Below are positions 4,779 through 55,978 of a stretch of 64,000 nt of DNA, in pieces (position 1 is the first letter of the stretch; every line of letters starts with the position of its first letter). A model generated the notes under the pieces. The model saw only the letters and a program-made list of their open reading frames with translations. It searched no databases and was not told the DNA's origin. Source of the DNA: Anadara kagoshimensis (lineage: Eukaryota; Mollusca; Bivalvia; Arcoida; Arcidae); assembly GCA_021292105.1 (NCBI GenBank), contig CM037872.1, positions 14,658,791 to 14,722,790 on the forward strand, in the 5' to 3' direction. A program made the translations under genes and the position numbers.

Positions 4779-7700
4779 CTATAAAAGACAGAAAAATTAA
4801 TTAAAAATTTATAAATCAAAGCACTGATAGTGCTGAATGTAGGAAACTAGTGATGAAGCCAGGTAAAGCAGGTCGGTGCTCAGTCCAAGGACTGGAAGAT
4901 TTATAAAGAAAATGAATATGGAAGTTCCATGCGTGTAAGTAAGCTCTGTATTATGGCATTGTCAAAGACAATGAGATAATTTACCTGCAAAGATTGTATC
5001 AGATTTTATCTTACAATTAATATGTATTTTGTTTAAATTCATTCATTCTTGAACTGATATAAGGGTGTCTGATATAAAATTCTGTATCAGGCATATGCCT
5101 GATACAAGGTCGCGTGCGTTTGTTCCCGGACTATTTCAGCTTCATGGTAATGAGGTCATCAGATTCCCCTAGATTCTGTCATGTCAAGACAAATGAAAGC
5201 AGTTAAAAACTACAATAAGTTATAAAAAATGTTAATCTTTATTAGAAAATGAAACGGTAAAATGTAATTCTTGGCAATAGCGGTAAGTTGATTTGTATCA
5301 GTACATAATATATTCAGTGTTCCCAAATGACGATTCATCTGTCACAGTAAATGTTCCATTCGTGTGATTTTGAACTGCATGCTGTCAAACGCATAAGTAT
5401 TAATATTGCCATTCCCATTTTCCAAAGATTCAATTGGTTAAAAGCTTATTGATCACACGTTTGATGTCTTAAATGGCGTCCAATGAACTGGCACCCGTCA
5501 ACTGCTATCCGTATTTTATACTGTGATGTTACACACCCCAGATATCCATCCGAAAAAAGAAATAGAACTAACTATGTTTAACTTTAATTAATAATACTAG
5601 AATTTTCCTAAATTTGTAAACATTGTTAGATAAAAATATCATTTAAATCTTATGTAAGTACAGAATTTGTATCAGAGTCGAGTCTTGTTCCCATGACGAT
5701 ATCACGACGAGCTGCTGTCCTGTAGCACATAACTCTGCTGTTACTGCTATTGCAAAGTCATTGCATATATCCAATGCCATAAACAACAGTGTAACAAAAA
5801 AATTGCTATGCCACCATCACCATTAACCAAATATTCCAAATATAAGACAATTTATCATTTACTCTTTTCAGACAGAATCAAATAATAAAACTGATCTTAT
5901 ATTGACTTCTAAACTGATCTAATATTGACTCCTAAACAAATCTTATATTGACTTCTAAACTGATCTAATATTGACTCCTAAACTGATCTATATTGACTTC
6001 TAAACTGATCTAATATTAACTTCTAAACATATCTTATATTGACTTCTAAACTGATCTAATATTGACTCCTAAACAAATCTTATATTGACTTTGAAACTGA
6101 TCTAATATTAACTTCTAAACTGATCTAATATTGACTTCTAAACTGATCTAATATTGACTCCTAAACAAATCTAATATTGACTTTTAAACTGATCTAATAT
6201 TGACTCCTAAACAAATCTAATATTGACTCCTTAAGTAATCTAATATTGACTTTTAAACTGATCTAATATTTACTTCTAAACTGATCTAATATTGACTTTT
6301 AAACTGATCTAATATTGACTCCTAAACTGATCTAATACTGACTTTTAAACTGATCTAATATTGACTTTTAAACTGATCTAATATTGACTTTTAAACTGAT
6401 CTAATGTTGACTTTTAAACTGATCTAATATTGACTCCTAAACTGATCTAATATTGACTTTTAAACTGATCTAATATTGACTCCTAAACTGATCTAATGTT
6501 GACTTTTAAACTGATCTAATATTGACTCCTAAACTGATCTAATATTGACTTTTAAACTGATCTGATACTGACTCCTTAACTGATCTAATACTGACTTTTA
6601 AACAGATCTTATGTTGATCCTTAAGTGATCTAATATTGACTTAAAAACTGATCTAATATTGACTTTTAAACTGATCTAATGTTGACTTTTAATCTGATCT
6701 AATATTGACTCCTAAACTGATCTAATATTGACTTTTAAACTGATCTAATATTGACTCCTAAACTGATCTAATACTGACTTTTAAACTGATCTAATATTGA
6801 CTTTTAAACTGATCTAATACTGACTCCTAAACCCATCTAATACTGACTTTTAAACTGATCTAATATTGACTTTTAAACTGATCTAATATTGACTCCTGAT
6901 CTAATATTGACCTCTAAACTGAACTAATATTGACTTCTAAAAGCATTTGGATTATTTATAAATTGGGACCTAATTGTATGAAAAAGGTGGTTTTCTTGGC
7001 TACTTTATTAACCATCAAAATGATATACTTACAGAGTTTACAGGACAATTTTGTCTGGCATACCATTCCAAACTATACAGACACATTAATAAACCACACC
7101 CTATAAACAGGGATACCCACAGAAATACATTCCAACTCCGTGATACACCTTTCAGAAATATAAATCCAACTGAAATAGATGACAAAGTAAATACAATAAA
7201 CTCCATAAGTCTGATCATGTTCATTTGGAAAAAAATAAGTTATTATTATATCTTTGTTAAAGAAACGTAATGGTTTTCCTTAAACCCAAAGTCAGATCTG
7301 ATAAAGACTTGAAAAAGTTAGTGAATGTTTTATCAAGAATTGGGCATCTTGAAATAAAAACCACTGTTCTATCTTTCAGTTAAGATCTGGAAAACCTATC
7401 TGAAATTTAACAATAAGGCATGGTAAACAGAAAAGCATTACTTACTTGAATAAACAGTAAAATTTTCAACAACTGCAAAAATTGACCACATTGCAATATA
7501 AGTGAAATCGTACTGATCTGGGCATTCAGTCAATCAATATTCTAGTTTGAGGAAGACTGGTTCCACTGTATTTGTATTAAACTTTTATTTCAAAGTATCA
7601 AGCGAGAACAGAAATATTGCAAATGTTGTAGAAGTTGAGCACAGATGAAGCATTGGGCTTGACACTTTTAGAAAGATGCTGCATATATACATATACATAT

Positions 7701-11600: not shown

Positions 11601-14600
11601 TTTACCTCATTTTGAACGTCATGTCAAGACAACACTAAATCTGAAATTACATCTCATTATCTTTATTAAAAGTCAAGATATAGCAATTCAAATTGGTTTT
11701 CAAAAATTTGCATAATTTGCATAATTTAAAGCCAAAATGCATAAAATTCACGAAATGTACAACCTTCTAGGTTGAGACCATGTAGAATCCAAATATCACA
11801 TCAGTTTTTGCCTCCAATTAATGGTTCTGGAGAAGAAGATTATTTTTGGGTTTTTCTAGTTTTAGTAACAGCAGTGATCTTGGATATCTGATCGTCATGC
11901 TTTAAACAAACTACAGTTACATTCAATAAAGGACCTTCAAAAGCCAATTTGGTTTCAATTGGCCAAGTAGTTTCAGACTTTTTGCTGTTAACAGATGCAT
12001 GCACGCACCCACGCACACATGCATACATTATGCCATTAGCTAATCTGGCTTTAGGCAGTTGAGCTAAAAATGGAAATGGTGAAACGTATATTCTGGAAAC
12101 CCTCTGAAGATCGATTATGATAAAACACAATCAATAATTGCAATTGTGAGGCTTCAACACTCTGCTTATTGGTTCTTTCTGATAATTGGTTCATCACTAA
12201 CCATGATGGTGTAGGGTAGGACATATAGTGGCATACATTTTTGTTGTTGATTACTGACTGTGAATCATGAATGTCAATATAAAGTTTATAATTCCACTTC
12301 TTCTTGGCTTCTAGAGAAATAGAACTATGGTAACTACTGGAAACAACAAGGCATCAGAAGTGATACTAATCCCCTCACAATCAACTTTTGTGTAATAAAG
12401 GGCAATAACTCTGTCAAATTTAGTTTGCCAGTTACAAAACACAAACTTGTCCAAGATATCAACATGATAAAGTGAGAAATTGGAGACATTATCATGATAA
12501 ACTTTTGTATCAAGTTTTATTAATTTCTGTTGAGAAAAAAAGTTGTTAAAGCGCTGACAAGAGTAACATATGTACGTATGCATGGGCCAAATCCTATATT
12601 CCCTCCGAACTTTGTTTTTTGAGGGGATAATAATAAATTTGTTTCAGTCCCCCCTCCCATCCCTGACCAACTTTTAATATTTATATTTTACCTATCATGA
12701 GCACCAGAGTTCCAGGAAGCATAGAACCAAACACTGATAACAGTAATGCTTTAGGTGTTACATGTTCCTCGTTAAAATGTCGGAAGACTGGTACACAGAA
12801 TCTCTCAAATATGTAGTATGTGTAAAACAAACAGGCAGTGACTTGAGCAAAATTACTGACCACATAATTCCAGCGAATTGTAGGTGTCCTGAAATGAATA
12901 AGATAAGCAGTGTTAACAAACCAAATTCTCTCTCTTGAAGAAAATATTTTTAATGTTGGCATTGTCAACTGAAGAGATTTGATTGCTAAATAAATAGTTT
13001 CTTTAAGAAAAAGTATCTTTATTTTCTGCAAATAATGCCATTTCAAGCGAGATATTCTGCGAAGAAATTGATTATCAAATTACAAATAAGCTAAAAATAT
13101 GCATTCTAGTACAACTCTACTGGTACGAATGAGAAAAGGTTAAACCAATTGAGCTTTATCAATATTGTAAAACCAAATATGAATTGAAAATATAATTTGT
13201 TGTGCTTTTGTTACTTACCTTGGATAAGAGTCTCTATAAATCAATGATGGACAGAAGAGGAAATACAAATATTTAGAGAAGTCAGGAACGAGTGAATCAT
13301 CTGTATTGACATCTGTATTGACATCATCATCTGTAAAATGTTATAGAAAATGGTAATAACACAACAGTTCAGGTGTAACAATCAGTTCTATCTCAAAAGC
13401 AAGTTTATGAACATTCATAATTAAATAAATCCAAAGTACACATTAATAAGTTATACATTTTATAAATTGTTATTGAGCTAAGAATGGTGCTACTTAACAA
13501 TAGCTGTCAGACTCACCTGTAATAGTGCTACTTAACAATAGCTGTCAGACTCACCTGTAATAGTGCTACTTAACAATAGCTGTCAGACTCACCTGTAATA
13601 GTGCTACTTAACAATAGCTGTCAGACTCACCTGTAATAGTGCTACTTAACAATAGCTGTCAGACTCACCTGTAATAGTGCTACTTAACAATAGCTGTCAG
13701 ACTCACCTGTAATAGCTGTCAGACTTGCATGTAATGGTGCTACTAAAACAAGAGCTGTCAGACTTGCATGTAATAGTGCTTATTAACAAGAGCTGTCAGA
13801 CTGGCTTGTAAATCAAATCCATCAAAAACACTTCATATCTATTAAAAAGTTTAACACTGCAGTTTAATGCCAACAATAAAAATCCAGGGGCATCAGTAAT
13901 ATATGTGTTAGATATTGCCAATGTAATATTTACCTTTTTTACTTTTCCCATAAGAAAGAACTCTAGTTACATTTTCTCTCACAAATGAATGCACTTTCAT
14001 ACCCAGCCTCATCTACAAAAATAAACAATATATCATTAGCAGGTACCAGCCTCATCTACAAAAATAAACAATATATCATTAGCAGGTACCAGCCTCATCT
14101 ACAAAAATAAACAATATATCATTAGCAGGTAATCTCATTGGTCATATTCTAATTTTTCGAAGGAAAATTATGAAATCATTTCTTCTGACAAATATGAGAC
14201 AATTCTTCCACACACACACACACACACACACACCACACACACACACACCACATATATATATATATAATAATGTTCCAAAAGATCTATATATATATATATA
14301 ATAATGTTCCAAAAGATCTATATATATATACATTGTATAATAATGTTCCAAAAGATCTATATATATATAATAATGTTCCAAAAGATCTATATATATATAA
14401 TAATGTTCCAAAAGATCTATATATATATATATAATAATTTTCCAAAAGATCTATATATATATATATAATAATGTTCCAAAAGATCTATATATATATATAT
14501 ATAATAATGTTCCAAAAGATCTATATATATATATAATAATGTTCCAAAAGATCTATATATATATATATATAATAATGTTCCAAAAGATCTATATATATAT

Positions 14601-17600
14601 ATAATAATGTTCCAAAAGATCTATATATATATATAATAATGTTCCAAAAGATCTATATATATATATATAATAATGTTCCAAAAGATCTATATATATATAA
14701 TAATGTTCCAAAAGATCTATATATATATATATAATAATGTTCCAAAAGATCTATATATATATATATAATGTTCCAAAAGATCTATATATATATATATAAT
14801 AATGTTCCAAAAGATCTATATATATATATATAATAATGTTCCAAAAGATCTATATATATATATAATAATGTTCCAAAAGACCTATATATATATATAATAA
14901 TGTTCCAAAAGATCTATATATATATATATATAATAATGTTCCAAAAGATCCTATTTTCAATGTTTAAAAAATCTAGAATAATGTGTTTTAGATTATGCTG
15001 CTTTCCTTTATGGTGAGTGTGTGTGTGTGTGTGAGTGTGTGTGTGTGTGTGTGTGTGAGTGTGTGTGTGTGTGAGTGTGTGTGTTCCTAACTTTGTGTGT
15101 TCCATTTCATGCAGCAGATACATTTATGTGCATGATGCTTTACCTGTTCAGTTGTTATAATACAAGCAGAAGCAGGAGGAAGAACATGCTCCATCACATA
15201 ATACAAAGGCAAAACTAAAAATCCCACTTGGTACCCCACAAACACAGCAAGGGCTATCCAGTCAAGCCAGCCTAAAATAAACAGAAAAAAATACAGGTAT
15301 AATGTATTGAATAAAATCTCTGATATACTACAAAATTACAATATGTTACCCAGTGTCATATTGATAATTATGAATTAAGTCTCCCACCTGGCACCACACA
15401 ATGTCAGAGACTTATTGTCCTTATTCCATTTACCCAGTGTCATATTGATAATTATGAATTAAGTCTCCCACCTGGCACCACACTATGTCAGAGACTTATT
15501 GTCCTTATTCCATTTACCCAGTGTCATATTGATAATTATGAATGAAGTCTCCCACCTGGCACCACACTATGTCAGAGACTTATTGTCCTTATTCCATTTA
15601 CCCAGTGTCATATTGATAATTATGAATTAAGTCTCCCACCTGGCACTACACTCTGTGTCAGAGACTTATTGTCCTTATTCCATTTACCCAGTGTTATATT
15701 GATAATTATGAAATAAGTCTCCCACCTGGCACCACACTCTGTGTCAGAGACTTATTGTCCTTATTCCATTTACCCAGTGTTATATTGATAATTATGAAAT
15801 AAGTCTCCCACCTGGCACCACACTATGTGTTAGACCTTATTGTCCTTATTCCATTTACCCAGTGTCATATTGATAATTATGAATGAAGTCTCCCACCTGG
15901 CACCACACTATGTCAGAGACTTATTGTCCTTATTCCATTTACCCAGTGTCATATTGATAATTATGAATTAAGTCTCCCACCTGGCACTACACTCTGTGTC
16001 AGAGACTTATTGTCCTTATTCCATTTACCCAGTGTTATATTGATAATTATGAAATAAGTCTCCCACCTGGCACCACACTATGTGTCGGAGACTTATTGTC
16101 CTTATTCCATTTACCCAGTGTTATATTGATAATTATGAAATAAGTCTCCCACCTGGCACCACACTATGTGTTAGACCTTATTGTCCTTATTCCATTTACC
16201 CAGTGTCATATTGATAATTATGAATTAAGTCTCCCACCTGGCACTACACTATGTGTCAGAGACTTATTGTCCTTATTCCATTTACCCAGTGTCATATTGA
16301 TAATTATGAATTAAGTCTCCCACCTGGCACCACACTATGTGTCGGAGACTTATTGTCCTTATTCCATTTACCCAGTGTTATATTGATAATTATGAAATAA
16401 GTCTCCCACCTGGCACCACACTCTGTGTCAGAGACTTATTGTCCTTATTCCATTTACCCAGTGTCATATTGATAATTATGAATTAAGTCTCCCACCTGGC
16501 ACTACACTATGTGTCAGAGACTTATTGTCCTTATTCCATTTACCCAGTGTCATATTGATAATTATGAATTAAGTCTCCCACCTGGCACTACACTATGTGT
16601 CAGAGACTTATTGTCCTTATTCCATTTACCCAGTGTCATATTGATAATTATGAATTAAGTCTCCCACCTGGCACCACACTATGTGTCAGAGACTTATTGT
16701 CCTTATTCCATTTACCCAGTGTCATATTGATAATTATGAATTAAGTCTCCCACCTTGCACCACACTATGTGTCAGAGACTTATTGTCCTTATTCCATTTA
16801 CCCAGTGTTATATTGATAATTATGAATGAAGTCTCCCACCTGGCACCACACTATGTGTTAGAGACTTATTGTCCTTATTCCATTTACCCAGTGTCATATT
16901 GATAATTATGAATGAAGTCTCCCACCTGGCACCACACTATGTGTTAGACCTTATTGTCCTTATTCCATTTACCCAGTGTCATATTGATAATTATGAATTA
17001 AGTCTCCCACCTTGCACCACACTATGTGTCAGAGACTTATTGTCCTTATTCCATTTACCCAGTGTTATATTGATAATTATGAATGAAGTCTCCCACCTGG
17101 CACCACACTATGTGTTAGAGACTTATTGTCCTTATTCCATTTACCCAGTGTCATATTGATAATTATGAATGAAGTCTCCCACCTGGCACCACACTATGTG
17201 TTAGAGACTTATTGTCCTTATTCCATTTACCCAGTGTTATATTGATAATTATGAATTAAGTCTCCCACCTGGCACCACACTATGTGTTAGAGACTTATTG
17301 TCCTTATTCCATTTACCCAGTGTCATATTGATAATTATGAATTAAGTCTCCCACCTTGCACCACACTATGTGTCAGAGACTTATTGTCCTTATTCCATTT
17401 ACCCAGTGTCATATTGATAATTATGAATTAAGTCTCCCACCTGGCACCACACTATGTCAGAGACTTATTGTCCTTATTCCATTTACCCAGTGTCATATTG
17501 ATAATTATGAATTAAGTCTCCCACCTTGCACTACACTATGTGTCAGAGACTTATTGTCCTTATTCCATTTACCCAGTGTTATATTGATAATTATGAATGA

Positions 17601-20600
17601 AGTCTCCCACCTGGCACCACACTATGTTAGACCTTATTGTCCTTATTCCATTTACCCAGTGTTATATTGATAATTATGAATTAAGTCTCCCACCTGGCAC
17701 TACACTCTGTGTCAGAGACTTATTGTCCTTATTCCATTTACCCAGTGTCATATTGATAATTATGAATGAAGTCTCCCACCTGGCACACACTATGTGTCGG
17801 AGACTTATTGTCCTTATTCCATTTACCCAGTGTCATATTGATAATTATGAATTAAGTCTCCCACCTGGCACCACACTATGTGTTAGAGACTTATTGTCCT
17901 TATTCCATTTACCCAGTGTCATATTGATAATTATGAATTAAGTCTCCCACCTTGCACCACACTATGTGTCAGAGACTTATTGTCCTTATTCCATTTACCC
18001 AGTGTCATATTGATAATTATGAATTAAGTCTCCCACCTGGCACCACACTATGTGTCAGAGACTTATTGTCCTTATTCCATTTACCCAGTGTCATATTGAT
18101 AATTATGAATTAAGTCTCCCACCTGGCACCACACTATGTGTCAGAGACTTACTGTCCTTATTCCATTTTCTTCAGGCTTGTCTGCCCTTTTTCTCAGTGA
18201 TGCCTTATTCAATCTCAACGATACTTAATAGCAGCAATGTAATAACCATGTAGATATGCAATCAGCATTAAAAATTTCCAACATGGCTGCCATTACCATG
18301 GAAACAGGAGGTGGGAGACCTCCTTCATTCTAGTTTACTGACACTTCGGCAAATAAACAAGTGGAAAAATACAGGAATATTTAAAGGATAGTGACAATTT
18401 AATTTATCATCAAGTTACTGTAGGTCTGAAAGCAATTTAACCACACAGGCACCATGGCTTTTTGAATTTGAAAAGATGAGTAAAAAATCATCATTAAGTA
18501 TATATCATACGATTTCTTCATGCTGTTTATTCTCTTGTAGCTGCTAGAACTGTCCAACATGCTCTTTGACCAGTCTCCTGTTGGTTGCCCATTGGTAAAA
18601 CATGGGAAGACAATAGTAAGAATATTTAAAGGTCATTTTGTCCAAGTGGTAAAACATGGAAAGACAATAGTAAAAACACTTGAAAAGTGGTAAAACATGG
18701 GAAGACAATAGTAAGAAAACTTAAAGATCATTTTGTTCAAGTGGTAAAATAGTGAAAACAATAGTAAGAACACTTGAAGATCATTTTGTCCTAGTGGTAA
18801 AACATGGGAAGACAATAGTAAGAACACTTGAAAATCAATTTGTCCAACAGGTAAAACATGTGAAGACAATGGTAAGAACACTTGAAGATCATTTTGTCCA
18901 AGAACATGGGACGACAATAGTAAAAAAACTTAAAGATCATTTTGTCCAAGTGGAAAACATGGAAGACAATAGTAAGAAAACTTGAAAATCATTTAGTCCA
19001 AGTGGTAAAACATGTGAAGACAATAGTAAGAACACTTGAAGATCATTTTGTCCAAGTGGTAAAACATGGGAAGACAATAGTAAGAGTATTTGGAGATCTT
19101 TTTGTCCAAGTGGTAAAACATGGGAAGACAATACTAAGAGTATTTGGAGATCATTTTGTCCAAGTGGTAAAACATGGGAAGACAATAGTAAGAAAACTTA
19201 AAGATCATTTTGTCCAAGAGGTAAAACATGAGAAGACAATAGTAAGAGTATTTGAAGATCATTTTGTCCAAGTGGTAAAACATAGGATGACAATAGTAAG
19301 AACACTAAAAGATCATTTTGTCCAAGTGGTAAAACATGGGACGACAATAGTAAGAACAACTGAAGATCATTTTGTCCAAGTAGAAAAACATGGGACGACA
19401 ATAGTAAGAACACTTAAAGATCATTTTGTCCAAGTAGTAAAACATGGGAAGACAATAGTAAAAACACTTAAAGATCATTTTGTCCAAGTAGTAAAACATG
19501 GGAAGACAATAAAAACACTGAAAGATAATTTTGTCCAAGTGGTAAAACATGGGAAGACAATAGTAAGAACACTCGAAGATCATTTTGTCCAAGTGGTAAA
19601 ACATGGGAAGACAATAGTAAAAACACTTGAAGATCATTTTGTCCAAGTGGTAAAACATGAGAAGACAATAGTAAGAAAGCTTAAAGATAATTTTGTCCAA
19701 GTAGTAAAACATGGGAAGACAATAGTAAGAACACTTGAAGATCATTTTGTCCAAGTGGTAAAACATGAGAAGACAATAGCAAGAAAGAATAAAGATAATT
19801 TTGTCCAAGTAGTAAAACATAGGAAGACAATAGTAAGAACATTTAAAGATCATTTTGTCCAAGTAGAAAAACATGGGACGACAATAGTAAGAACACTTAA
19901 AGATAATTTTGTCCATGTAGTAAAACATGGGAAGACAGTAGTAAAAACACTTAAAGATCATTTTGTCCAAGTGGTAAAACATGGGAAGACAGTAGTAAGA
20001 ACACTTAAACATCATTTTGTCTAAGTAGTAAAACATGGGAAGACAATAGTACAAACACTTGAAGATCATTTTGTCCAAGTGGTAAAACATGAAAAGACAA
20101 TAGTAAGAAAGCTTAAAGATAATTTTGTCCAAGTAGTAAAACATAGGAAGACAATAGTAAGAACATTTAAAGATCATTTTGTCCAAGTAGAAAAACATGG
20201 GACGACAATAGTAAGAACAACTGAAGATCATTTTGTCCAAGTAGAAAAACATGGGACGACAATAGTAAAAACACTTAAACATCATATTGTCCAAGTAGTA
20301 AAACATGGGAAGACAATAGTAAAAACACTTAAAGATCATTTTGTCCAAGTGGTAAAACATGGGAAGACAGTAGTAAGAACACTGGAAGATCATTTTGTCC
20401 AAGTAGAAAAACATGGGACGACAATAGTACGAAAACTTAAAGATCATTTTGTCCAAGTAGTAAAACATTGGAAGACAATAGTAAAAAAACTTAAAACATC
20501 ATTTTGTCCAAGTAGTAAAACATGGGAAGACAATAGTAAAAACACTGGAAGATCATTTTGTCCAAGTGGTAAAACATGGGAAGACAGTAGTAAGAACACT

Positions 20601-23600
20601 GGAAGATCATTTTGTCCAAGTAGAAAAACATGGGAAGACAGTAGTAAGAAAACTTAAAGATCATTTTGTCCAAGTTGTAAAACATGGAAAGACAATAGTA
20701 AAAACACTTGAAGATCATTTTGTCCAAGTGGTAAAACATGGGAAGACAGTAGTAAGAAAACTTAAAGATAATTTTGTCCTAGTGGTAAAACATGGGACGA
20801 CAATAGTAAGAACAACTGAAGATCATTTTGTCCAAGTAGAAAAACATGGGACGACAATAGTAAGAACACTTAAAGATCATTTTGTCCAAGTAGTAAAACA
20901 TGGGAAGACAATAGTAAAAACACTTAAACATCATTTTATCCAAGTAGTAAAACATGGGAAGACAATAGTAAAAACACTTAAAGATCATTTTGTCCAAGTG
21001 GTAAAACATGGGAAGACAATAGTAAGAACACTCGAAGATCATTTTGTCCAAGTGGTAAAATATGGGACGACAATAGTAAAAACACTTGAAGATCATTTTG
21101 TCCAAGTGGTAAAACATGAGAAGACAATAGTAAGAAAGCTTAAAGATAATTTTGTCCAAGTAGTAAAACATGGGAAGACAATAGTAAAAACACTTGAAGA
21201 TCATTTTGTCCAAGTGGTAAAACATGAGAAGACAATAGTAAGAAAGCTTAAAGATAATTTTGTCCAAGTAGTAAAACATAGGAAGACAATAGTAGGAACA
21301 TTTAAAGATCATTTTGTCCAAGTAGAAAAACATGGGACGACAATAGTAAAACTGAAGATCATTTTGTCCAAGTAGAAAAACATGGGACGACAATAGTAAG
21401 AACACTTAAAGATCATTTTGTCCAAGTAGAAAAACATGGGACGACAATAGTAAAAACACTTAAAGATCATTTTGTCCAAGTGGTAAAACATGGAAAGACA
21501 GTAGTAAGAACACTGGAAGATCATTTTGTCCAAGAGGTAAAACATGGGAAGAAAATAGTAAGAAAACTTAAAGATCATTTTGTCCAAGTGGTAAAACATG
21601 GGACGACAATAGTAAGACCAACTGAAGATCATTTTGTCCAAGTAGAAAAACATGGGAGACAATAGTAAAAACACTTAAAGATCATTTTGTCCAAGTAGTA
21701 AAACATGGGAAGACAATAGTAAAAACTTAAAGATCATTTTGTCCAAGTAGTAAAACATGGGAAGACAATAGTAAAAACACTTAAAGATCATTTTGTCCAA
21801 GTGGTAAAACATGGGAAGACAGTAGTAAGAACACTAAAGATCATTTTGTCCAAGTAGAAAAACATGGGAAGACAATAGTACGAAAACTTAAAGATCATTT
21901 TGTCCAAGTAGTAAAACATGGAAGACAATAGTAAAACACTTAAATCATTTTGTCCAAGTAGTAAAACATGGGAAGACAATAGTAAAAACACTTAAAGATC
22001 ATTTTGTCCAAGTAAAACATGGGAAGACAGTAGTAAGAACAACTGAAGATCATTTTGTCCAAGTAGAAAAACATGGGAAGACAGTAGTAAGAAAACTTAA
22101 AGATCATTTTGTCCAAGTGGTAAAACATGGGAAGACAGTAGTAAGAACACTGGAAGATCATTTTGTCCAAGTAGTAAAACATGGGAAGACAGTAGTAAGA
22201 AAACTTAAAGATCATTTTGTCCAAGTGGTAAAACATGGGACGACAATAGTAAGAACAACTGAAGATCATTTTGTCCAAGTAGAAAAACATGGGACGACAA
22301 TAGTAAGAACACTTAAAGATCATTTTGTCCAAGTAGTAAAACATGGGAAGACAATAGTAAAAACACTTAAACATCATTTTGTCCAAGTAGTAAAACATGG
22401 GAAGACAATAGTAAAAACACTTAAAGATCATTTTGTCCAAGTGGTAAAACATGGGAAGACAATAGTAAGAACACTCGAAGATCATTTTGTCCAAGTGGTA
22501 AAATATGGGACGACAATAGTAAAACACTGAAGATCATTTTGTCCAAGTGGTAAAACATGAGAGACAATAGTAAGAAAGATTAAAGATAATTTTGTCCAAG
22601 TAGTAAAACATGGGAAGACAATAGTAAAAACACTTGAAGATCATTTTGTCCAAGTAGTAAAACATAGGAAGACAATAGTAAGAACATTTAAAGATCATTT
22701 TGTCCAAGTAGAAAAACATGGGACGACAATAGTAAGAACACTTAAAGATAATTTTGTCCAAGTAGTAAAACATGGGAAGACAATAGTAAAAACACTTAAA
22801 GATCATTTTGTCCAAGTAGTAAAACATGGGAAGACAATAGTAAAAACACTTAAAGATCATTTTGTGCAAGTGGTAAAACATGGGAAGACACATAGTAAGG
22901 GTATTTGAAGATCATTTTGTCCAAGTGGTAAAACATGGGAAGACAATAGTAAGAACACTCGAAGATCATTTTGTGCAAGTGGTAAAACATGGGAAGACAA
23001 TAGTAAGAACACTTGAAGATCATTTTGTTCTAGTGGTAAAACATGGGAAGACAGTAGTAAGAACACTTGAAGATCATTTTGTTCTAGTGGTAAAACATGG
23101 GAAGACAATAGTAAGAAAGCTTGAAAATCATTTTGTCCAAGTGGTAAAACATGGGAAGACAGTAGTATGAAAACTTGAAGATCATTTTGTCCAAGTGGTT
23201 AAACATGGAACGACAGTAGTAAGAACACTGGAAGATCATTTTGTCCAAGTAGAAAAACATGGGACGACAATAGTACGAAAACTTAAAGATCATTTTGTCC
23301 AAGTAGTAAAACATGGGAAGACAATAGTAAAAACACTTAAACATCATTTTGTCCAAGTAGTAAAACATGGGAAGACAATAGTAAAAACACTTAAAGATCA
23401 TTTTGTCCAAGTGGTAAAACATGGGAAGACAGTAGTAAGAACAACTGAAGATCATTTTGTCCAAGTAGAAAAACATGGGACGACAATAGTAAGAACACTT
23501 GAAGATCATTTTGTCCAAGTGGTAAAACAAGGTAAGACGACTTGAAGATCATTTTGTCCAAGGTCTTTTAATGGCCAGTAATAACAAGAGGCCCATGGGC

Positions 23601-26600
23601 CTTAACCCTCACCTGAGGCTGAGCACATATCTCATGCAGAGGTTCAATGGTCAATGACATTAATAAAAAAGAATGTCAAAATTTACAGCAGTAAGGGCCA
23701 GTAATATGCAAGTATTTTTGCAAATTAATTATAAGAATTATTATATAAGAATGCTACATATAACATATCTAAAGTGTAGCTACAATATATTATTTATAAA
23801 CAGCTAAAACATGTATATATCAAAATGATCGTTAGGCCAATACCTACAATATTCTAATATACATGCCAATACAAAAAGTTTATAGTTTTTGAGATAATTA
23901 ACCATTTCAGAATTTGTTTGCATCTATGACCTTCATTCATATATCAAAATGATCACTGTGCAAATGCCTACAATATTCTAATATACATGCCTATACAAAA
24001 AGTTTATAGTTTTTGAGATAATTAACCATTTAAATATTTGTTTGTGTCTATGACCTTGACCTTTGAACCTATGACCTTAATTCATATATAAAAATGATCA
24101 TTAGGCCAATACCTACAATATTCTAATATACATGCCAATACAAAAAGTTTATAGTTTTTGAGATAATTAACCATTTAAGTATTCGTTGGCGTCTATGACC
24201 TTGACCGTTGAGCCTATGACCTTCATTCATATATCAAAATGATCGTTGTGCAAATGCCTTAAATATTCTTATATACATGCCTATACAAAAAGTTTAGTCT
24301 TTGAGATAATTAACCATTTAAGTATTTGTTCGCATCTATGACCTTGAAGTTTGAACCCATGACCTTCATTCATATATCAAAATGATCATTAGGCTAATAG
24401 CTACAATATTCTCATATACATGCTTATACAAAAGTTTATAGTTTTCAAGATACAGTTGAATCTCGTTATCTTGAACTCGGATATCTCGAACTACCGGATA
24501 TCTCAAACTTTTTTAAAAAGTCCGAACAGAGTTGTTCTTTATTAAACCAAAATCACTCCGGTTATCTCAAACTCGGATATCTAGAATTATCAGATATGTC
24601 GAACAATATTTTCGTCCCCTTGAATGAAAATCCTAGGAAAATTACACTCGTTAACTTGAACAAAAAATTTAGGAAAATTAAATTTGTTAACTTGAACAAA
24701 CAAGAGGCCCATGGGCCTGATACGCTCACCTGATAACTAATGGCTAGCTGATAGATTTAAAGAAAACATAAACACTTAACCCCAATGACTTTTTTCTTTA
24801 CATCAAAATGATCATTGTATCAATACCTACAACATTCTAATATACATGCCTATACAAAACATTTATAGTTTTCAAGATAATTAACCATTTCAGTATTGTT
24901 TTGCATCTGTGACCTTGACCTTTGAACCCATGACCTTTTTCTATACATCAAAATGATTGTTGTATTAATACCTACAACATTCTAATATACATGCCTATAC
25001 AAAAAGTTCATAGTTTTCGAGATAATTAACCATTTTGGTATTGTTTTCGCATCGGTGACCTTGACCTTTGAACCTATGACCTTTTTCTATACATCAAAAT
25101 GATCGTTGTATCAATACCTACAACATTCTAATATACATGCCTATAAAAAAAGTTTATAGTTTTCAAGATAATTAACCATTTCCGTATTGTTTCACATCTG
25201 TGACCTTGACCTTTGAACCCATGACATTAATCTATACATCAAAATGATCGTTGTAGCAATACCTACAACATTCTAATGTATATGACTATACAAAAAGTTT
25301 ATAGTTTTCGAGATAATAATTATAATCAGAGGTAAAAAAAATTAGGTCATGACCTTCACAATTGACCTTGACCTCATTTTGAAGATACTAACAAGAAGAT
25401 GTCAAAACTGAAAACCCCATGTCATTATCCGGTCAAATAGTCAAGTTATAACAATTTGAAGCTATTTTCCGATTTTTTCAAAATTAAACGCAAAAACGCG
25501 TAACCTATTATTTGTCCGAATTTCACAAAATGAACAAACTATGGGCTTAAGACCCTAGAGAAGCCAAATATCACATCAGATTTTTTCTCCAATCAATACT
25601 TTCGGAGAAGAAGATTTTTTAAGATTTTTGCACCCCTAGGTCACCTTGACCTAGTTATGGTAGCCATGGCAACGCCACAAACAAATCTGAATTGCACCGG
25701 CCCATATATACTTCTCACCAAGTTTCATTGAAATCTGCCAAGTACTTTCAGAGGAGAAGTCGAAAATGTGTGTTAACGACGCACGCACACACGCATGCAC
25801 ACACGCACGCACACACGCTGCACCATATCATAAGCTCACATGACCTTTGGTCAGGTGAGCTAAAAATTTAGGAAAATTAAATATGTTAACTCGAACAAAA
25901 AGTTTTGGAAAATCAAATTTGTCAACGCCTACAGATTTTTTGGTAGAAAAAACACATTCCGACATAAATAAAATATTTGAATGTCAGCCTTGTGTTGATT
26001 TTAAAATTACAACATTGCACTGACCTCCCAATTTCCTTAAGCCCCTAATTATTATCCCTTACATAAGCAATCAAACCATCAAGGAGATTAGCAGGTGTTA
26101 TAATTACTGCCAAGCTGAACATGGCTGCCGAAAGCGTGTGATGTGAACATTACTCAATACAACCAGTAGCTTGGGGTGATTAAAGTACACAAAGCGAAAC
26201 TGGTATTGAGACCAAAGCGGACTCCACTATTTGTCGGCTAATAACAATAGCGCAATCAGTTATTGACAGATTTAACATATCTAAATTGGATTTGATTGAC
26301 AACATTGTAGCTGAAAAGATGTATTTTATATTTCACGTTTAATTTTTAAGTAAACGATAATAGTAGCTGGAAAGTAGCACAAATATAATGCACTTGTAAA
26401 CTTAGACGGCTGTTTACTGATTCACTTGGTATGAATAAAATTGTACTTGAATACGATCTCACAGTACTTAAAAACGAACATTGTTGACACTATTTTGTAA
26501 CCAACTTGCTTCTCATGTTTAAAACAGATGTAGCGGCATCGGTAAATACTGAGAATTTTGTCGACATTGGCATTTCATAAGGCTACTAGATCTATATGAC

Positions 26601-29600
26601 TATTTCATAGTTTCGTATATTTATGTCGAACTATGTTACAGATAATCTCCCGATTTTTTATATACTACATTCTCAATTATAAATACAAATAATAAATAAT
26701 GCAGTTTTTATATATCATGTTTGAATACATACGATATAGAAGAAGCGACTTCCGGTAGGCGTGTACGAGTTACTTCCCCTTTGTTGCTGTTTTTAACATC
26801 AGTTATCTCGAACTCCGGATAAGTCGAACTTTTTGCATTTCCCCGTCGAGTTCGAGATAATGAGATTCAACTGTTTATTGACAAATACATTAATTTTAGC
26901 TATTTCACAATTAAGTACCTTGCCATTTCCCCATTTTGGCCCCCACAGTTACGATTTGTGCAAATCTGAAACTAGGTGCCCTAAGAATGTTTCACATGAA
27001 ATATCTAAGCTATATCTCTTGTAAGTTCAGAGGAGATAATTTTTAAAGATTTTCACAATTTCCCCCTTTATGGGGCCCCAAGGGGACATAATCCTTTCAT
27101 TTGTGCAAATCTGAAAGCCCCTTAACCAGACTTCATTACTGCCAAATATCATCCAATTTGGCTTTGTAGTTTTGGAAAAGTTGATTAAAATGTGAAAAGT
27201 TTACACACGACTGACGACGCACGACGGACGAAGATAAATAGCAATAGCTAACCAGAGGCTCAGGATGAGCCTGTATCGCTCACCTGACTAAAATGCTTTT
27301 AAAGCAAATTTGTATATATGCTTTTCCAATAGGGTCAAACTGTAAAGTTTGATTCAATTTGCTTCACTAGCTTCAGAGGAGATAGCATATATATGCTTTT
27401 CCCATAGGGTCCAATATTAAACTATCTTCTGCGCTGGCGGCCATGTTTTTTTTGGCGGATCAGAAAAATTTTGGCAATCTAAGTAAAGGACATTCTTTAC
27501 ATCATTTCTGTAAAGTTTGGTTAAATTCGCTTCAGTCATTTCTGAGGAGATAGCCAAAAATTCGTTTTTCCCATAGGGTCCAATGTTAAACTATCTTCTG
27601 CGCTGGCGGCCATGTTTTTAGGCGGATCAGAAAAATTTTGGAAATCTTTGTGAAGGACCTCCAATACATCATTTCTATAAAGTTTGGTTAAGTTTCCTTC
27701 AGTAGTTTCAGAGGAGATAGCCAAAATGTGTTTTTCCCATAGGGTCCCATGTTAAACTATGTTCCCCGCTGGCAGCCATGTTTTTAGGCGGATCAGAAAA
27801 ATTTCGGCAATCTTTGCAAAAGACCTTCCATACATCATTCCTGTAAAGTTAAATTGAATTTGCTTCAGTCGTTTCAGAGGAGATAGCCAAAATGTGCGTT
27901 TTCCCATAGGGCCCAATGTTAAACTTTGTTTGGCCCTGGCGGCCATTTTTTTTGGCGGATCAGAAAAATTTGGGCAATCTTAGTAAATGACCTTACATAC
28001 ATTATTCCTGTAAAGTTTGGTTCAAATTAGCTCAGCGGTTTTAAAGAAGATAGCAAAAATATGCTTTTCCCATAGGGTCCAATGTTAAACTATCTTCTGC
28101 GCTGGCGGCCATGTTTTTTGACGGATCAGAAAAATTTTGGCAATCCAAATAAAGGACCTTCCTTACACCATTCCTGTAAAGTTTGGTTAAATTTGCTTCA
28201 GTCATTTCTGAGGAAATCGTTAAAAATGCATTTTTCCCATAGGGTCCAATGTTAAACTATCTTCTGTGCTGGCAGCCATGTTTTTTGGCGGATCAAAAAA
28301 ATTTCGGCAATCTAAGTAAAGGACCTTCCATACATCATTCCTGTAAAGTTTGGTTAAAATTGCTCCAGTGGTGTCAGAGGAGATAGTCAAAATGTGAAAA
28401 GTTTACGGACGGACGACAGACGACGGACGACGACGACGGACGACGGACGACGGACGACAGACGACGACGGACGCAAAGTGATGGCAAAAGCTCACATGGC
28501 CTTTGGCCAGGTGAGCTAAAAATGTAAATAATAATAATGTTACTTGATTTCTCTGGCAGGTGTCCTGCAGCTGGTTATCCAGTAGTAAAACATAAGTAAA
28601 CAATAACAAGGATACTTACTGACTTTTCCAGGTTTCCTGTTGGTTGCCCAGTAGTAGAAACATGGGTAGACAACAATAAGGGTACTCAGCTGCATACACA
28701 CCCATAATGCCATTACTTTGGGAAACTTCCCCAATGCCCATTGCATCAAGTGGAAATCTAAATTCAATCTGAGAAAAATGGAAATAATATAACACTGTAA
28801 ATAACATTTGAACTTACTTATGAATTGTAGTGTAATAGAAAACTGAAATGGCAAATGTGAATAAAGTAAATATTGATAAAAAACTGTATTCTTGTAGTAA
28901 AACATAGCACTCGGAGCTGATCTACAATGTAGTTACAAATATGTTGTGAAAGGAAAGAAAGGGAAGATAATATAACACTGTAAATGACATTTGAACTTAC
29001 TTATGAATTGTAGTGTAATAGAAAACTGAAATGGCAAATGTGAATAAAGTAAATATTGATAAAAAACTATATTTTTTTGTAGTAAAACATAGCAATCAGA
29101 GCTGATCTACAATGTAGTTACAAATATGTTGTGAAAGGGAAGAAAATTGAAATCTTTCCCTTTCGCTTAAGTAAGCTGATCAAATTAAATTATTGCTCAA
29201 AAGGGGCCTGTAATGCTCAAATGGCAAAATTTTGACTATTTTGCATAATTTGCTAAAATTGGGTCAATGAAAAATTTCCTTGCAAAAACTTGTCATATAT
29301 GTTAAACAGCAAGGTATTTACTTTCTATATTTCAAATATGAAAAGAATTGGTGAAAAACTGAATGCACAATAGCCATTTGAGTAATTTTGCTATTTATAG
29401 TAATGGCAGCCATCTTGGATTTTGTACCGGGTCTCCTTCAAACTTTGATCTACTCCACCTAGGGACCCTCGACACAAAATTTGGTTTCAATTGGCCCAGT
29501 GGTTTCTGAGAAGAAGATTTTTAAAGAATTGGCTAAAAATCTGACCTCATTTGCATAATTTGTTAAAATTAGGTCAATGAAAAAATGGCTAGGTGTAAGT

Positions 29601-32600
29601 TTTTTATTTCAAATTTGAAGAAAATCAGTGGAAAATTGAATGTACACTGGCCATTTTAGTGATTTTACTATTTATAGTAATAGTGGACATGATTGATTTT
29701 GTACCGGGTCGCCTTGTACAAACTTTGATCTACTCCACCTAGGGACCGTCCATACCAATTTTGGTTTCAACTGGCCCCATGTTTTCATAGGAGAAGATCA
29801 AAATTTACACATGCCCACATATACCCACAGACCAACGCATGCTTCACCATGCCATTAACTCAGCTGGCTATAGCCACCTGATAAATAATGGCTAGCTGAT
29901 ACATTTCAAGAAAACATAAATACTGTTCATAATAGTAATGATTTGAGGCTTTTACAGATAATTAATCATTTCAGTATTCTTTTGCATCTGTGACCTTGAC
30001 CTTTGAACCCATGACCTTCACCTATATATCACAATGATCATTGTATCAATACCTACAATATTCTATTATAAATGCCTATACAAAATGTTAATACCATAGT
30101 TTTCAAGATAATTTACAATTTTAGCATTCTTTCACATCTGTGACCTTGATCTTTGAACCCATGATTTTAATCGATCATTACATCAATACCAATAAAATTT
30201 TAATATACATGCCTATACAAAATGTTTATAGTTTTCCAGAAAATAAATAAAATCTGAAAGGTCAAAAATTGGGACATGACCTTCACAACTGACCATGATC
30301 CCATTTCCAAGGTAATTCCAAAAATATGTCAAAACTGAAAACCCCATGTCATTATCTGATCAAATAGTCGAGTTATAACAATTTGAAGTTATTTTACGAC
30401 TTTTAAAAATTAAATGCTAAATTGTGTAACCTATTTTTTGTCTGATTTTCATGAAACGACAAACTATAGGCTTAAGACCCTAGAAAAGCCAAATATCACA
30501 TTTTTTCTCCAATCATCTGTTTTGGAGAAGAAGATTTTTTAAAGATTTTTGCACCTTGATCAAGTTATGGTAGCCATGGCAACAAAATGAACAAATCTGA
30601 ATTGCACTTGCCCATATATACTTCTGACGAAGTTTCATTGAAATATGTCTGGTAGTTTCGGAGAAAAAGTCAAAAATAGGTGTTAACTATGCTGTGATGC
30701 ACCTACATACACACCATAAGCTGGGGGGGGGGGGGGGGGGTACAGGGCCGTTGATATTTAAGGCCTTCTAACATACCCACCTTCCTTCATTGATGATGTC
30801 ATATACAATAGTGTTTAAACTAAACACTATAAGTATAGCAACAAATATATGGAAAATGGTCTTTACATGGGAAATCTCAAACAAATCTCTGCAAATATAG
30901 GAAAAAAAGACTTCTATTAACATTTTAATATTTGAGATCTTAGTTAGAAATTATATATACTACATTTTCTAAAATACATTGGTTAGGTAACCCAAAGTTA
31001 TTATTTTGTTAGTGTATTTATTTGTTGTTGCTTTGAATTTAAAAACTTAAACACTTGGAAAACTATACATGCAGAGTTATCTAAGATTAAATGTATATAA
31101 AAGATGAATTAACAATGTACAATTCCTTCTTGTGGTCAGTGTAGTGGAACTTCTACGATGAACAATTCCTTCCTTCTTGTGGTCAGTGTAGTGGAACTTC
31201 TATAATGACAATTCCTTCTTGTGGTCAGTGTAGTGGAACTTCTATAATGAACAATTCCTTCTTGTGGTCAGTGTAGTGGAACTTCTATAATGAACAATTC
31301 CTTCTTGTGGTCAGTGTAGTGGAACATGTACAATTCCTTCTTGTGGTCAGTGTAGTGGAACTTCTACAATGTACAATTCCTTCTTGTGGTCAGTGTAGTG
31401 GAACTTCTACAATGTACAATTCCTTCTTGTGGTCAGTGTAGTGGAACTTCTACAATGAACAATTCCTTCCTTCTTGTGGTCAGTGTAGTGGAACTTCTAT
31501 AATGAACAATTCCTTCTTGTGGTCAGTGTAGTGGAACTTCTACAATGAACAATTCCTTCTTGTGGTCAGTGTAGTGGAACTTCTATAATGAACAATTCCT
31601 TCTTGTGGTCAGTGTAGTGGAACTTCTACAATGAACAATTCCTTCCTTCTTGTGGTCAGTGTAGTGGAACTTCTATAATGAACAATTCCTTCTTGTGGTC
31701 AGTGTAGTGGAACTTCTATAATGAACAATTCCTTCTTGTGGCCAGTGTAGTGGAACTTCTATGATGAACAATTCCTTCTTGTGGCCAGTGTAGTGGAACT
31801 TCTACAATGAACAATTCCTTCTTGTGGTCAGTGTAGTGGAACTTCTACAATGAACAATTCCTTCTTGTGGTCAGTGTAGTGGAACTTCTACAATGAACAA
31901 TTCCTTCTTGTGGTCAGTGTAGTGGAACTTCTACAATGTACAATTCCTTCTTGTGGTCAGTGTAGTGGAACTTCTATAATGAACAATTCCTTCTTGTGGT
32001 CAGTGTAGTGGAACTTCTACGATGTACAATTCCTTCTTGTGGTCAGTGTAGTGGAACTTCTACGATGAACAATTCCTTCTTGTGGTCAGTGTAGTGGAAC
32101 TTCTATAATGAACAATTCCTTCTTGTGGTCAGTGTAGTGGAACTTCTACAATGTACAATTCCTTCTTGTGGTCAGTGTAATGGAACTTCTACAATGAACA
32201 ATTCCTTCTTGTGGTCAGTGTAGTGGAACTTCTACAATGAACAATTCCTTCTTGTGGTCAGTGTAGTGGAACTTCTACAATGTACAATTCCTTCTTGTGG
32301 TCAGTGTAGTGGAACTTCTACAATGTACAATTCCTTCTTGTGGTCAGTGTAGTGGAACTTCTACAATGTACAATTCCTTCTTGTGGTCAGTGTAGTGGAA
32401 CTTCTACAATGTACAATTCCTTCTTGTGGTCAGTGTAGTGGAACTTCTACAATGTACAATTCCTTCTTGTGGTCAGTGTAGTGGAACTTCTACAATGAAC
32501 AATTCCTTCTTGTGGTCAGTGTAATGGAACTTCTACAATGTACAATTCCTTCTTGTGGTCAGTGTAGTGGAACTTCTACAATGTACAATTCCTTCTTGTG

Positions 32601-43047: not shown

Positions 43048-43267
43048 AAATATGGTTATCATCCACAGCTGAAAAAAGAAACCAAATATGGTTATCATCC
43101 AAAGCTGAAAAAAGAAACCAAATATGGTTATCATCCATAGCTGAAAAAAAGAAACCAAATATGGTTATCATCCATAGCTGAAAAAAAGAAACCAAATATG
43201 GTTATCATCCATAGCTGAAAAAAAGAAACCAAATATGGTTATCATCCATAGCTGAAAAAAAGAAACC
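43048..43267. repeat. 37-bp minisatellite with acceptor-like core, 6 copies
   Basis: Unit AAATATGGTTATCATCCATA, GCTGAAAAAAAGAAACC (36-37 bp) with TATGGTTATCATCC starting at 43051, 43087, 43123, 43160, 43197 and 43234. On the minus strand each unit reads GGTTTCTTTTTTTCAG, a strong 3' splice-site-like signal, then CTATGGATGATAACC. It lies 54-273 nt before the candidate exon at 42961-42994 in the direction of transcription. Confidence 0.95.
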
Positions 43268-48472: not shown

Positions 48473-49336
48473 CAAGAGCACCGCCGAGCGGAGCATTATA
48501 CGCCCGTGTTATATTGATCGAGTAGTACTATTTACTGAGAAGTATAAGTACAACTAGGATATATGTATGTAAAAATATATTACCAACTCCGTGTTCGGGC
48601 CATAACTCGTAACCCAAAAAAGTTGTAATTCAAATTTGCACGAGATATTACCATGATTAAGGTGTAACTGTATAACAAATTTCATTTAAATCCATGTTTG
48701 TATTGTCTACTGAATGGAATACAAACCACATGGTCATACATACAAAAATATCTAAGTTAAAAAAGGGGCATAACTCCTCCAAAAATAATCTGAAAAAGTT
48801 GTAATTCGAACTTGCACCAGATATTAACATCGTAAATGTGTATACCAAATGTATAACAAATTTCATTTAAATCCATGTTTGTATTGTCTACTGAATGGAA
48901 TACAAACCACATGGTCATACATACAAAAATTTCTAAGTTAAAAAAGGGGCATAACTCCTCCAAAAATAATCTGAAAAAGTTGTAATTCGAACTTGCACCA
49001 GATATTAACATCGTAAATGTGTATACCAAATTTCATTTGAATCCATAAATAGTTGTAGGCTCTAATGATCGGAAACCACATGGTCATACATACAAAAATT
49101 TCTAAGTTAAAAAAGGGGCATAACTCCTCCAAAAATAATCCGAAAAAGTTGTAATTCGAACTTGCACATGGTATTACCATGGTAAAGCTGTATACCAAAT
49201 TTCATTTGAATCCATAAATGTTTGTAGTCTCTATTGAACGGAATACAAATTGTTAACAGATGCCCGCCCGGATGCCCGCCCGCCTGGACGGACAGCACCG
49301 TAACATAATACGTCCCGTCATATGACGGGCGTATAA
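48473..49336. mobile_element. Element with about 180-bp internal repeats inserted in the transposase-like gene
   Basis: Opens ACAAGAGCACCGCCGAGCGG and TTATACGCCCG (48494), and closes CGGGCGTATAA (about 49326-49336), an inverted match. Three to four tandem units carry GGGGCATAACTCCTCC, AAAAAGTTGTAATTCGAACT, CAAATTTCATTT and CACATGGTCATACATAC. It separates the N-terminal coding remnant from the rest of the gene. Confidence 0.75.
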
Positions 49337-49337
49337 A

Positions 49338-50159
49338 AAAAGAGAGAAAAACGTCAACAAGAGAAGATGAAAGGCAGTCAAAAGAGGGATAGGGCAGAGT
49401 ATATGAAAGAATATAGACAAAAACAAAAACGAAAAGAATGGAAAATGCAAAAAAGGTTTCTAAGTGGCGCCAGAATAAAAATTCGGAACCATTAGACATC
49501 ACAAATGATGATACCCCTGGTCCTACCAATAAAGCATTTAATAATAGAATGGCCAAAGCACACGCTGTGCAGAGAGTTAAACAGTCTATTTCTGCTTTAA
49601 ATCCTGAGCAAAGGAGTGAGGTAATGATGTCCGTGTTAAATTCATTAAGTCCAATAGCAACAAAAACAAGAAAGATATTAGAGAAACAGAGTATTGTATC
49701 TACAGCGAAAAGTAAAACAGAACTTGACACGGCAAAGGCATTGATCAAAGACATATCTGAAGGGCTACAACACACATCTGGAAAGGGAACACAATCCAAA
49801 AACAAAAGGTTATATGTTTCGGCCAAAATGTCAAAAACCAGAGATTACAAAAGAAAGTATCAGAAAACCTAGGCATAAATAGAAAAATCATCTCTTCTGG
49901 AATCAAACAACGTGAAAAATTTTGAATGGCGAGGCAAATGCTTGGGAATTTACAAAAAGAAAATCAAGGAAAGACAAGGTAGATGATAAAACAAAACACA
50001 AGGTATATCAATTTTGGAAAAAAAACAGCACACCTATTAATGATTTAAAGAAAAAAATTCGCGGTAGAAATCATTATGTAGAACATTCAAAATATATATT
50101 GACAAAATCTCAAACTGAAATTTATTTAGATTTCGTGAAAGAAAATCCAAATTTAAAAA
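49338..50159 (+). pseudogene. Transposase-like gene, N-terminal half
   Basis: Reads EKRQQEKMKGSQKRDRAEYM in one frame to about 49452, then in the next frame SKWRQNKNSEPLDITNDD to KRKYQKT (stop about 49870), then ENLGINRKIISSGIKQREKF, then a further +1 shift into NGEANAWEFTKRKSRKDK and HYVEHSKYILTKSQTEIYLD, breaking off at NPNLKI where copy B of the 4-kb element begins. It is basic overall, as expected for a DNA-binding N-terminus. Confidence 0.65.
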
Positions 50160-54223: not shown

Positions 54224-55978
54224 TAAAACAGCGTATGTTCGAAAAGCTCCGACCTTTTTATATCAAGCCCGCAAGGAAGCGTGATAGGTTAACCTGCCTT
54301 TGTAAGACCCATGTTGAGACACATGTTATTTAGATGTGCCAAAGCGTACAGAACCGGTTTAAATACATCTGACTATGGTGTATGGTCAAGCCTACAGGAT
54401 CTTGTACGGAAGACACTCTGCGCACCCGGAGAAGATGGCAACTACAGAATAGAATGCCTTGAAAGAAAATGTCATCAATGTGGTGTCAATTGCTTAAAAT
54501 TAAGTCCACTGGAGGAAATCAAAGAAACTGAAACAGACAAGTTTATTACTTGGCAAAAATACCAATATGTCAACACAGGCAAAAAAGATAAATCTGGACA
54601 GCAATTAAAGAGACTTGACCTAGCTAATATTTCCTTGCCGCCAGGGTTCATGTGGGAATATTTAAAAGAGAAACTGCAATGGTACCCAATGCATCAGTTC
54701 CAAGCTCGATGGCAGAGAGAACAGTTAGATAATATAACAGAGAAGTTACCACAGGGTTATGTGTTGTTAATTCATGATTTTTCGGAGGATTTTAAGTGCG
54801 ATAATCAAGATGAAACACAGTCAGAGTTTTTCTCAAAAACTGACATTTCTGTTCACGTGTCGGTGCTGTTCCGCCATGCAGTATTAGAATATGATGGAAC
54901 TGATAGTACAGACGCCAACCCAGAGTTAATAAAGGAGTAAATTTTTGGCATATGTGAAACATAATCCCATGACAATAACATTGTGCACAAAATGCGGTAT
55001 AACATCATTCAAGATCATCTAAAGGAGAAACTTCATTATCCTTTGCAATTTGTTCATGAATTCACGGATGGGTGCTCACAACAGTACAAATCAAGACACT
55101 GCATGGGGGATGCAAGCATGTCACAGGAAGATTTTCAGATTCCAACACAACAAAAATTTTTCGAAACATCTCACAGAAAAGGAGAACAAGACGCAGCTGG
55201 AAGTCATGTAAAACATAAAGTTTCAATGGCTCTCATTCGAAGAGAAATCCGGATAAGGTCAGCACGGGATCTTTATCATTTTTTGACCAATAAATTTAAA
55301 TACCCGGCAATGTCTACATTTAAATCTAGAACAGAAAGTGTTCAATTTAAAGAAAGAATTTTCTACTTCGTTTCAACAAATGACATTAACGAGAAGAGGA
55401 CAGAGAGATTTTTTAAGTCTGTGAAGGATAATAGATCTATACATAGTGTAGTATCTCAGGAACCAGGCAAACTTTTAGTTCGTAAAAGAACATGCTACTG
55501 CAACATGTGCATCGATGGCATGTATGATGAGTGTCTTCATAAGGATGTTTTTGGTCCCTGGAAGTCCGAAACAATGCTACCTGACACGGTTAATAGAAAA
55601 AGCAACGATTTGGAAACCGTGCCTGTAGAAGTAAATGTAGAAGCATTATTATTTACCGAGAGTATTGTGGCTGTTTGTAACCAAACCGATCAAATTGATG
55701 AATTTTTTTTAATCAAAGTCACAAAAGAGCCATATGTTAGTGAAAGTTCTGGATCAAATGACTTTGGACACACATATAATATCGGTGATACAGTCGTTGA
55801 CGGTATTCGGTATAAATGTAAAAATGTATTCACACAGCTGTACAATCTTGATCCAAAGAAGAAGACACACATTTTTAAATTTAATGATATTATTTACATT
55901 TGCCCTGACCTAAAAGGCAATTCAAGACTTAAACTTCCATTTCATGTTTTCGATGAAATAGTTGACAGTTCATTTTAA
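54224..55978 (+). pseudogene. Transposase-like gene, catalytic and C-terminal part
   Basis: After the insertion: KQRMFEKLRPFYIKPARKRD, RLTCLCKTHVE, a frameshift, then 54311-54940 with CHQCGVNC, DLANISLPPGFMWEY, HQFQARWQREQLDNI and LIHDFSEDF. Two in-frame TAA codons (54938 and 54962) interrupt before 54983-55978, in the same frame: VHEFTDGCSQQYKSRHCMGD, FFETSHRKGEQDAAGSHVKH, RFFKSVKDNRSIHSVVSQ, CYCNMCIDGMYDEC and a C-terminal GDTVVDGIRYKCKNV segment. Putative catalytic acids are Asp of HDFS and Asp of TDG; the third residue is uncertain. Confidence 0.7.

Follow-up and report, generated by a model that had tools for sequence, protein, structure and literature searches.

For most satellite and minisatellite units, the origin can no longer be traced. 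An intron of a sterol O-acyltransferase (SOAT) gene of the bivalve Anadara kagoshimensis contains a 54-bp unit repeated about 90 times, and a coding exon of the same gene has an edge that resembles it. Did the array arise from this exon, and if so, how did the two come to lie apart? Here, we analyse the 64,000-nucleotide stretch containing the locus (the window) and argue that the array very probably grew in place from the 3′ edge of the exon, as a tract running exon–B–B3–array–A that was later split by mobile DNA. The features concerned are, in window coordinates:

15144-15271, minus strand: next SOAT exon
18573-18620, minus strand: copy A, at the far array edge, with the exon tail still present
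18600-23559, minus strand: tandem array, about 90 copies of a 54-bp unit, in which blocks of 27 units recur (Tandem Repeats Finder and direct parse)
23583-28522, no strand assigned: dispersed mobile DNA comprising HINE/pearl-like elements, in which an inverted-repeat element is nested, identified by repeated matches elsewhere in the genome
28524-28545, minus strand: copy B3, a third copy shortened by a mobile element
28546-28617, minus strand: copy B, first tandem duplicate of the exon edge (hand alignment)
28614-28619, minus strand: splice donor GTAAGT of exon C, at the exon/copy B junction (sequence and frame of the spliced model)
28620-28768, minus strand: SOAT coding exon C, 149 bp, source of the repeat
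30781-30888, minus strand: previous SOAT exon

The host gene and its intronic array

Joined in a spliced model, the previous exon, exon C and the next exon form a single open frame. Together with further SOAT exons, they encode a peptide that aligns with human SOAT1 (E 2.3e-101), and the joined exon peptides match the Pfam domain MBOAT. As a possible second SOAT gene for comparison, the assembly offers two further matches, both weak, on C19. Exon C and its donor are intact. The portion that recurs is the 3′ edge of the exon (28617-28687), and the exon segment behind the repeat aligns in frame with human SOAT1. Upstream of exon C, a AATATAACACTGTAAAT... stretch occurs twice, at 28786 and 28969, 183 bp apart. 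The locus is AT-rich (33% GC), and the array lies in the 13.3-kb intron between exon C and the next exon (28619 to 15272).

Tandem Repeats Finder describes the array as 90.4 copies of period 54 with 88% matches (18685-23538). Direct parsing of 18540-23570 anchors 92 units, from 23559 down to 18643, spaced by exactly 54 bp in 75 of 91 cases; both counts agree with the minus-strand array of about 90 units that a first-pass annotation had placed inside the SOAT gene. Pairs of units are on average 88% identical, and the ends of the array are more diverged from the consensus (identities of 0.907 and 0.880) than its middle (0.934). Blocks recur most strongly at a lag of 27 units, and stretches of 9 and 6 units reach about 98% identity, a pattern that may reflect later duplication of 27-unit blocks. 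Units close to either end resemble the exon no more than the others do (p 0.76 and 0.71). In searches of the assembly behind our genome-wide counts (1.115 Gb, 36 contigs), the listed matches of the unit all sit at the SOAT locus (46/46 and 91/91, counts that are lower bounds). Because the repeat is found at this one locus only, on those lower-bound counts, the array is an intronic minisatellite-type array; 'satellite', the term first applied to it, is too strong.

Most likely, the array is an inert by-product. The copies look non-coding, judging by their sequence: 13 of the 92 unit lengths are not multiples of three and break the frame, for which reason we rejected a coding role for the array's long open reading frames (up to 397 codons). 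The unit folds no better than its shuffles (z -0.48), and the donor motif GTAAGT is absent from the array; the intron stretch searched has it twice, counting the true donor. The frame, fold and donor checks thus give no sign of function, and any effect on the SOAT gene would act through intron length. A C5 match that begins inside the array edge was also rejected, as its flank is unrelated when read at the locus.

Several other tandem arrays are found in the window. The same intron holds an 86-bp array (33 copies, 95% matches, 15346-18168) that ends about 75 bp before the acceptor of the next exon, and a 43-bp array of about 81 copies (31112-34582) lies just upstream of the previous SOAT exon. 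Arrays with units of 23-42 bp also occur at 5888-6941, 13483-13811, 14252-14950 (with a 34-bp unit at 14252), 43048-43267 and 62366-63135. Long open reading frames at 49107-49872 and 54293-55978 comprise one of 245 codons on the minus strand and three of 151, 215 and 337 codons on the plus strand; the latter three have no Pfam match.

Likeness of the unit to the exon edge

The check suggested by the first-pass annotation was an alignment of unit and exon against shuffled sequence. The 54-bp consensus scores 50 against the exon and copy B, compared with a best of 38 in 5000 dinucleotide shuffles of the unit and 33 in 5000 shuffles of the exon region. Against the exon part alone, it scores 42, with a best of 30 in 5000 shuffles. 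When the consensus is scanned over the window outside the array, it scores highest at the exon (39) and next highest at copy B (36), both above the best score of 200 shuffled units (34). All copies, including A, B, B3 and the array, have the same orientation as exon C. These results support the proposal that the exon edge was duplicated locally in tandem and that the array is descended from it. Nine other arrays in the window, a set that leaves out the 34-bp array at 14252 and the arrays of longer period, were scanned in the same way: none outscores every one of its 200 shuffles, and two pass the 95% level only. For the 86-bp array, the best window match (34, to 145-bp repeats of mobile elements) exceeds the 95% shuffle level and stays below the best shuffle (38), and the 43-bp array has no window match above its shuffles.

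A screen for similar events in chicken used blastn-short with a cut-off of 42.1 bits, set on shuffled chicken introns (PMC12954441). At these settings, the SOAT intron gives 26 matches of at least 20 bases, all 26 in the array region; copy B is not found. The best match reaches 38.2 bits, and 100 shuffles of the intron reach at most 20.3. That this score falls below 42.1, and that the likeness involves only about 36 of the unit's bases, with about 18 having no exon counterpart, could be taken to mean that exon and array resemble each other by chance and are unrelated. We consider this highly improbable and, as far as shuffles can do so, already refuted: the alignment score is reached by none of 5000 shuffles in either set, the exon ranks first and its neighbour copy B second among all places in 64 kb, and copy A carries the match on through the exon tail.

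The about 18 of 54 unit bases outside the exon-like part have no demonstrated source. Compared with the junction of exon and donor, the unit is equalled by 261 of 5000 shuffles in its consensus form and by 1113 and 164 in two other forms; for the B–B3 junction, between 1475 and 3353 of 5000 shuffles do as well, and for a free local search, 4931 of 5000. By eye, it is appealing to read the unit as a 72-bp exon-edge repeat that lost 18 bases and took another 18 from the donor region. Because the shuffle tests are non-significant, this derivation is a guess only, and we do not adopt it.

A probable path from exon edge to split tract

Exon C, B and B3 form a direct tandem with periods of 70 and 72 bp. 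A partial copy beside the exon had been noted at 28560-28619, together with a 68-bp duplication of the exon edge. The copy is indeed there, as copy B, the second-best match of the unit in the window, and so is the duplication; the length needs correction, as the segment recurs at 70 to 72 bp. Copy B3 matches the start of B at 18 of 22 positions, ungapped and 72 bp further on. None of 115,530 control positions on both strands (with the 54-bp array, 14200-15090 and 28500-28700 left out) reaches 18, the best being 16. The B-side flank matches B or the exon better than most shuffles (19 and 34 of 5000 equally good), and B3 ends one to five bases from the mobile element. On the array side, the other half of the split copy is non-significant (2022 of 5000 shuffles equally good). 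When the joined copy is matched to the exon, flank shuffles do as well in 42 of 5000 cases and window stretches, with arrays counted among them, in 667 of 5000. As B3 is in phase and abuts the element, the tract once continued into the place that the element occupies.

At the far edge of the array, an earlier reported match at 18567-18615 running through the exon tail is recovered as copy A, which is 85.7% identical to the exon over 49 bp (54.5 bits, with a best of 29.2 in 100 shuffled introns). By hand alignment, identities to the exon are 38/47 for A, 38/47 for B and 34/45 for the unit; the exon-edge copies are thus about 81% identical to the exon, or about 19% different. A one-base deletion relative to the exon, which would break its frame, is common to A, B and the unit. 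Over the 46 usable columns of the four-way hand alignment, three pair A with the unit and none support the other two pairings. Private columns number 4 for the exon (the deletion included), 5 for B, 4 for the unit and 3 for A. Because the exon has no more of these than the others, only the deletion has a known direction. The exon's in-frame splicing and its in-frame alignment with human SOAT1 indicate that it is the ancestor of the copies; in other words, the frame and conservation of a coding exon fix the direction of copying.

Similarity and phase show a first step in which tandem duplication carried the exon edge, along with its splice donor, into the intron with a 70-72 bp period, giving B and B3. 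The motif AGTA, a weak match of four bases, opens the exon segment and recurs where exon and B meet. The tract may then have extended down the intron and given rise to a shortened 54-bp derivative, with about 36 exon-like bases and without the tail. Either unequal exchange or replication slippage could have brought this derivative to about 90 units, with copy A keeping the tail. In what was probably the last step, after the duplication of blocks, mobile elements entered the tract a little way into B3, so that 4.94 kb came to separate the array from the copies beside the exon.

The insertions themselves are seen in the 4.94 kb between B3 and the array (23583-28522), which are tiled by sequence found elsewhere in the genome. 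The tiles are given below with their identity to the best other copy among the matches listed (for 23790-24452 and 25862-26273, at least one other copy is among these matches):

23582-23800: 96%
23790-24452: 86%
24450-24703: 97%
24692-25317: 95%
25310-25866: 97%
25862-26273: 92%
26230-26400: 96%
26350-26874: 90%
26876-27248: 94%
26876-27339: 87%
27343-27400: 90%
27380-28400: 99%
28380-28524: 97%

Element ends were fixed on twenty other copies, ten per end. At the array side, AACAAGAG starts from 23583 in 10/10 copies; at the exon side, GTGAGCTAA starts from 28511 in 10/10, with further As in 8/10. HINE/pearl-like elements feature subterminal inverted repeats, internal tandem repeats, a microsatellite and a 3′ palindrome (PMC7492417), and all four are found in 23583-28522: the inverted repeats CTCACCTGA (at 23608, 24725 and 27279) and CAGGTGAG (at 25852 and 28508), internal arrays, a GACG-rich microsatellite and a palindrome read by eye. 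At 24452-26874, an inverted-repeat element (CAGTTGAATCTC ... GAGATTCAACTG, also read by eye) is nested in a HINE-like element and has another one inside it, at 24699-25866; many copies match the end of the inverted-repeat element at 97% identity. The HINE-like element at 27250-28522 has a 167-bp internal array and looks like the product of a recent burst, since 27380-28400 has full-length identities of 96-99% to at least 39 other copies.

Among the matches listed, the element adjoining B3 is 99% identical to its best other copies over 1021 bp, and the array-side element end is 96% identical to its best. The exon-edge copies, at about 81% identity to the exon, are far more diverged; on this comparison, duplication likely came first and insertion later, with identity to the nearest element copy serving as a rough clock only and the exon side being under selection. 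As the 4.94-kb gap is inserted mobile DNA, copy B and the array would have been about 60 bp apart before the insertions, with B3 occupying some of that distance. The 'second copy 10 kb away' of the first-pass annotation is therefore unnecessary, given also that B3 is in phase.

That earlier idea can be put more fully: after a local exon-edge duplication, a separate copy was carried 10 kb down the intron and amplified there. Copy A keeps an exon tail that is changed in B and might therefore have been copied from the exon independently. We nevertheless find this scenario unlikely, as inserted mobile DNA, including an element 99% identical to its relatives, explains the gap, the in-phase B3 implies that the tract continued beyond B, and A, B and the unit have the one-base deletion in common. 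Alternatively, the exon edge could have formed a small circle that was amplified by rolling-circle replication and re-inserted into the same intron. This would yield a regular array with the tail at one edge only, as found. It would also require re-insertion in the same intron and the same orientation and, with mobile DNA discounted, at a distance of about 60 bp from the tandem copies, and the in-phase B3 needs no circle; we judge it quite improbable. Growth in place followed by splitting thus remains our preferred reading, and at this one locus one can still see the source exon, its first duplicate, a third copy cut short, the derivative that was amplified and an insertion that later split the tract.

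Comparison with known repeat systems

In exon stuttering, described in chicken, a lateral part of an exon and its splice site are copied in tandem through the adjacent intron, leaving the exon intact; the repeats are imperfect and the introns rich in tandem arrays (PMC12954441, Hron et al. 2026). The SOAT locus is alike in each of these respects: a lateral exon part and its donor are repeated in tandem into the intron, the exon is unaltered, the repeats are imperfect and the intron is rich in tandem arrays. In the wording of that definition, exon C, B and B3 form the tandem, with the array and copy A in the same intron, and the segment ends at the donor, although the SOAT copies have lost it. 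The differences are several. The best SOAT match (38.2 bits) stays below the 42.1 bits of the chicken screen, a threshold set for another genome. Of the 236 chicken stuttering introns reported, 190 are on the mostly GC-rich dot chromosomes and 36 on macrochromosomes (PMC12954441), whereas the SOAT locus is AT-rich. Moreover, unlike what is described for chicken, the SOAT exon edge gave a shortened derivative that grew into a regular, block-repeated array of 90 units, and the tract was split by mobile DNA. The chicken report also describes extensive length variation among individuals and includes a passing, unpublished remark on gerbil; in the open-licence literature searched, the term exon stuttering occurs in that one paper, and we found no invertebrate case. 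The SOAT array therefore resembles, or works like, chicken exon stuttering and is best called a variant of that process instead of a full member, because of the 42.1-bit cut-off.

Two other systems offer partial parallels. Pacific oyster HINE (Helentron) elements carry satellite-like repeats (PMC7492417); here too, tandem arrays occur in a bivalve genome and HINE-type elements adjoin the SOAT array, but the 54-bp array itself lies outside any such element and is found at one locus only.

Minisatellites can also be born from local unique DNA via slippage between short direct repeats. The SOAT array is likewise of local origin from flanking unique sequence, with weak AGTA repeats; it differs in having a coding exon edge as its source and in the amplification of a unit shorter than the first duplicate.

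If our reading is correct, a shortened derivative of an exon edge has become a regular 90-unit array in an AT-rich bivalve genome, extending a process described in birds. The AT-richness of the locus argues against GC-richness being required. Whether the multiplication of exon edges into introns is a general route to new tandem-repeat families, not peculiar to GC-rich bird microchromosomes, is to us an evenly balanced question. The SOAT case suggests a simple screen for it, in which exon edges are compared with their adjacent introns in other genomes.
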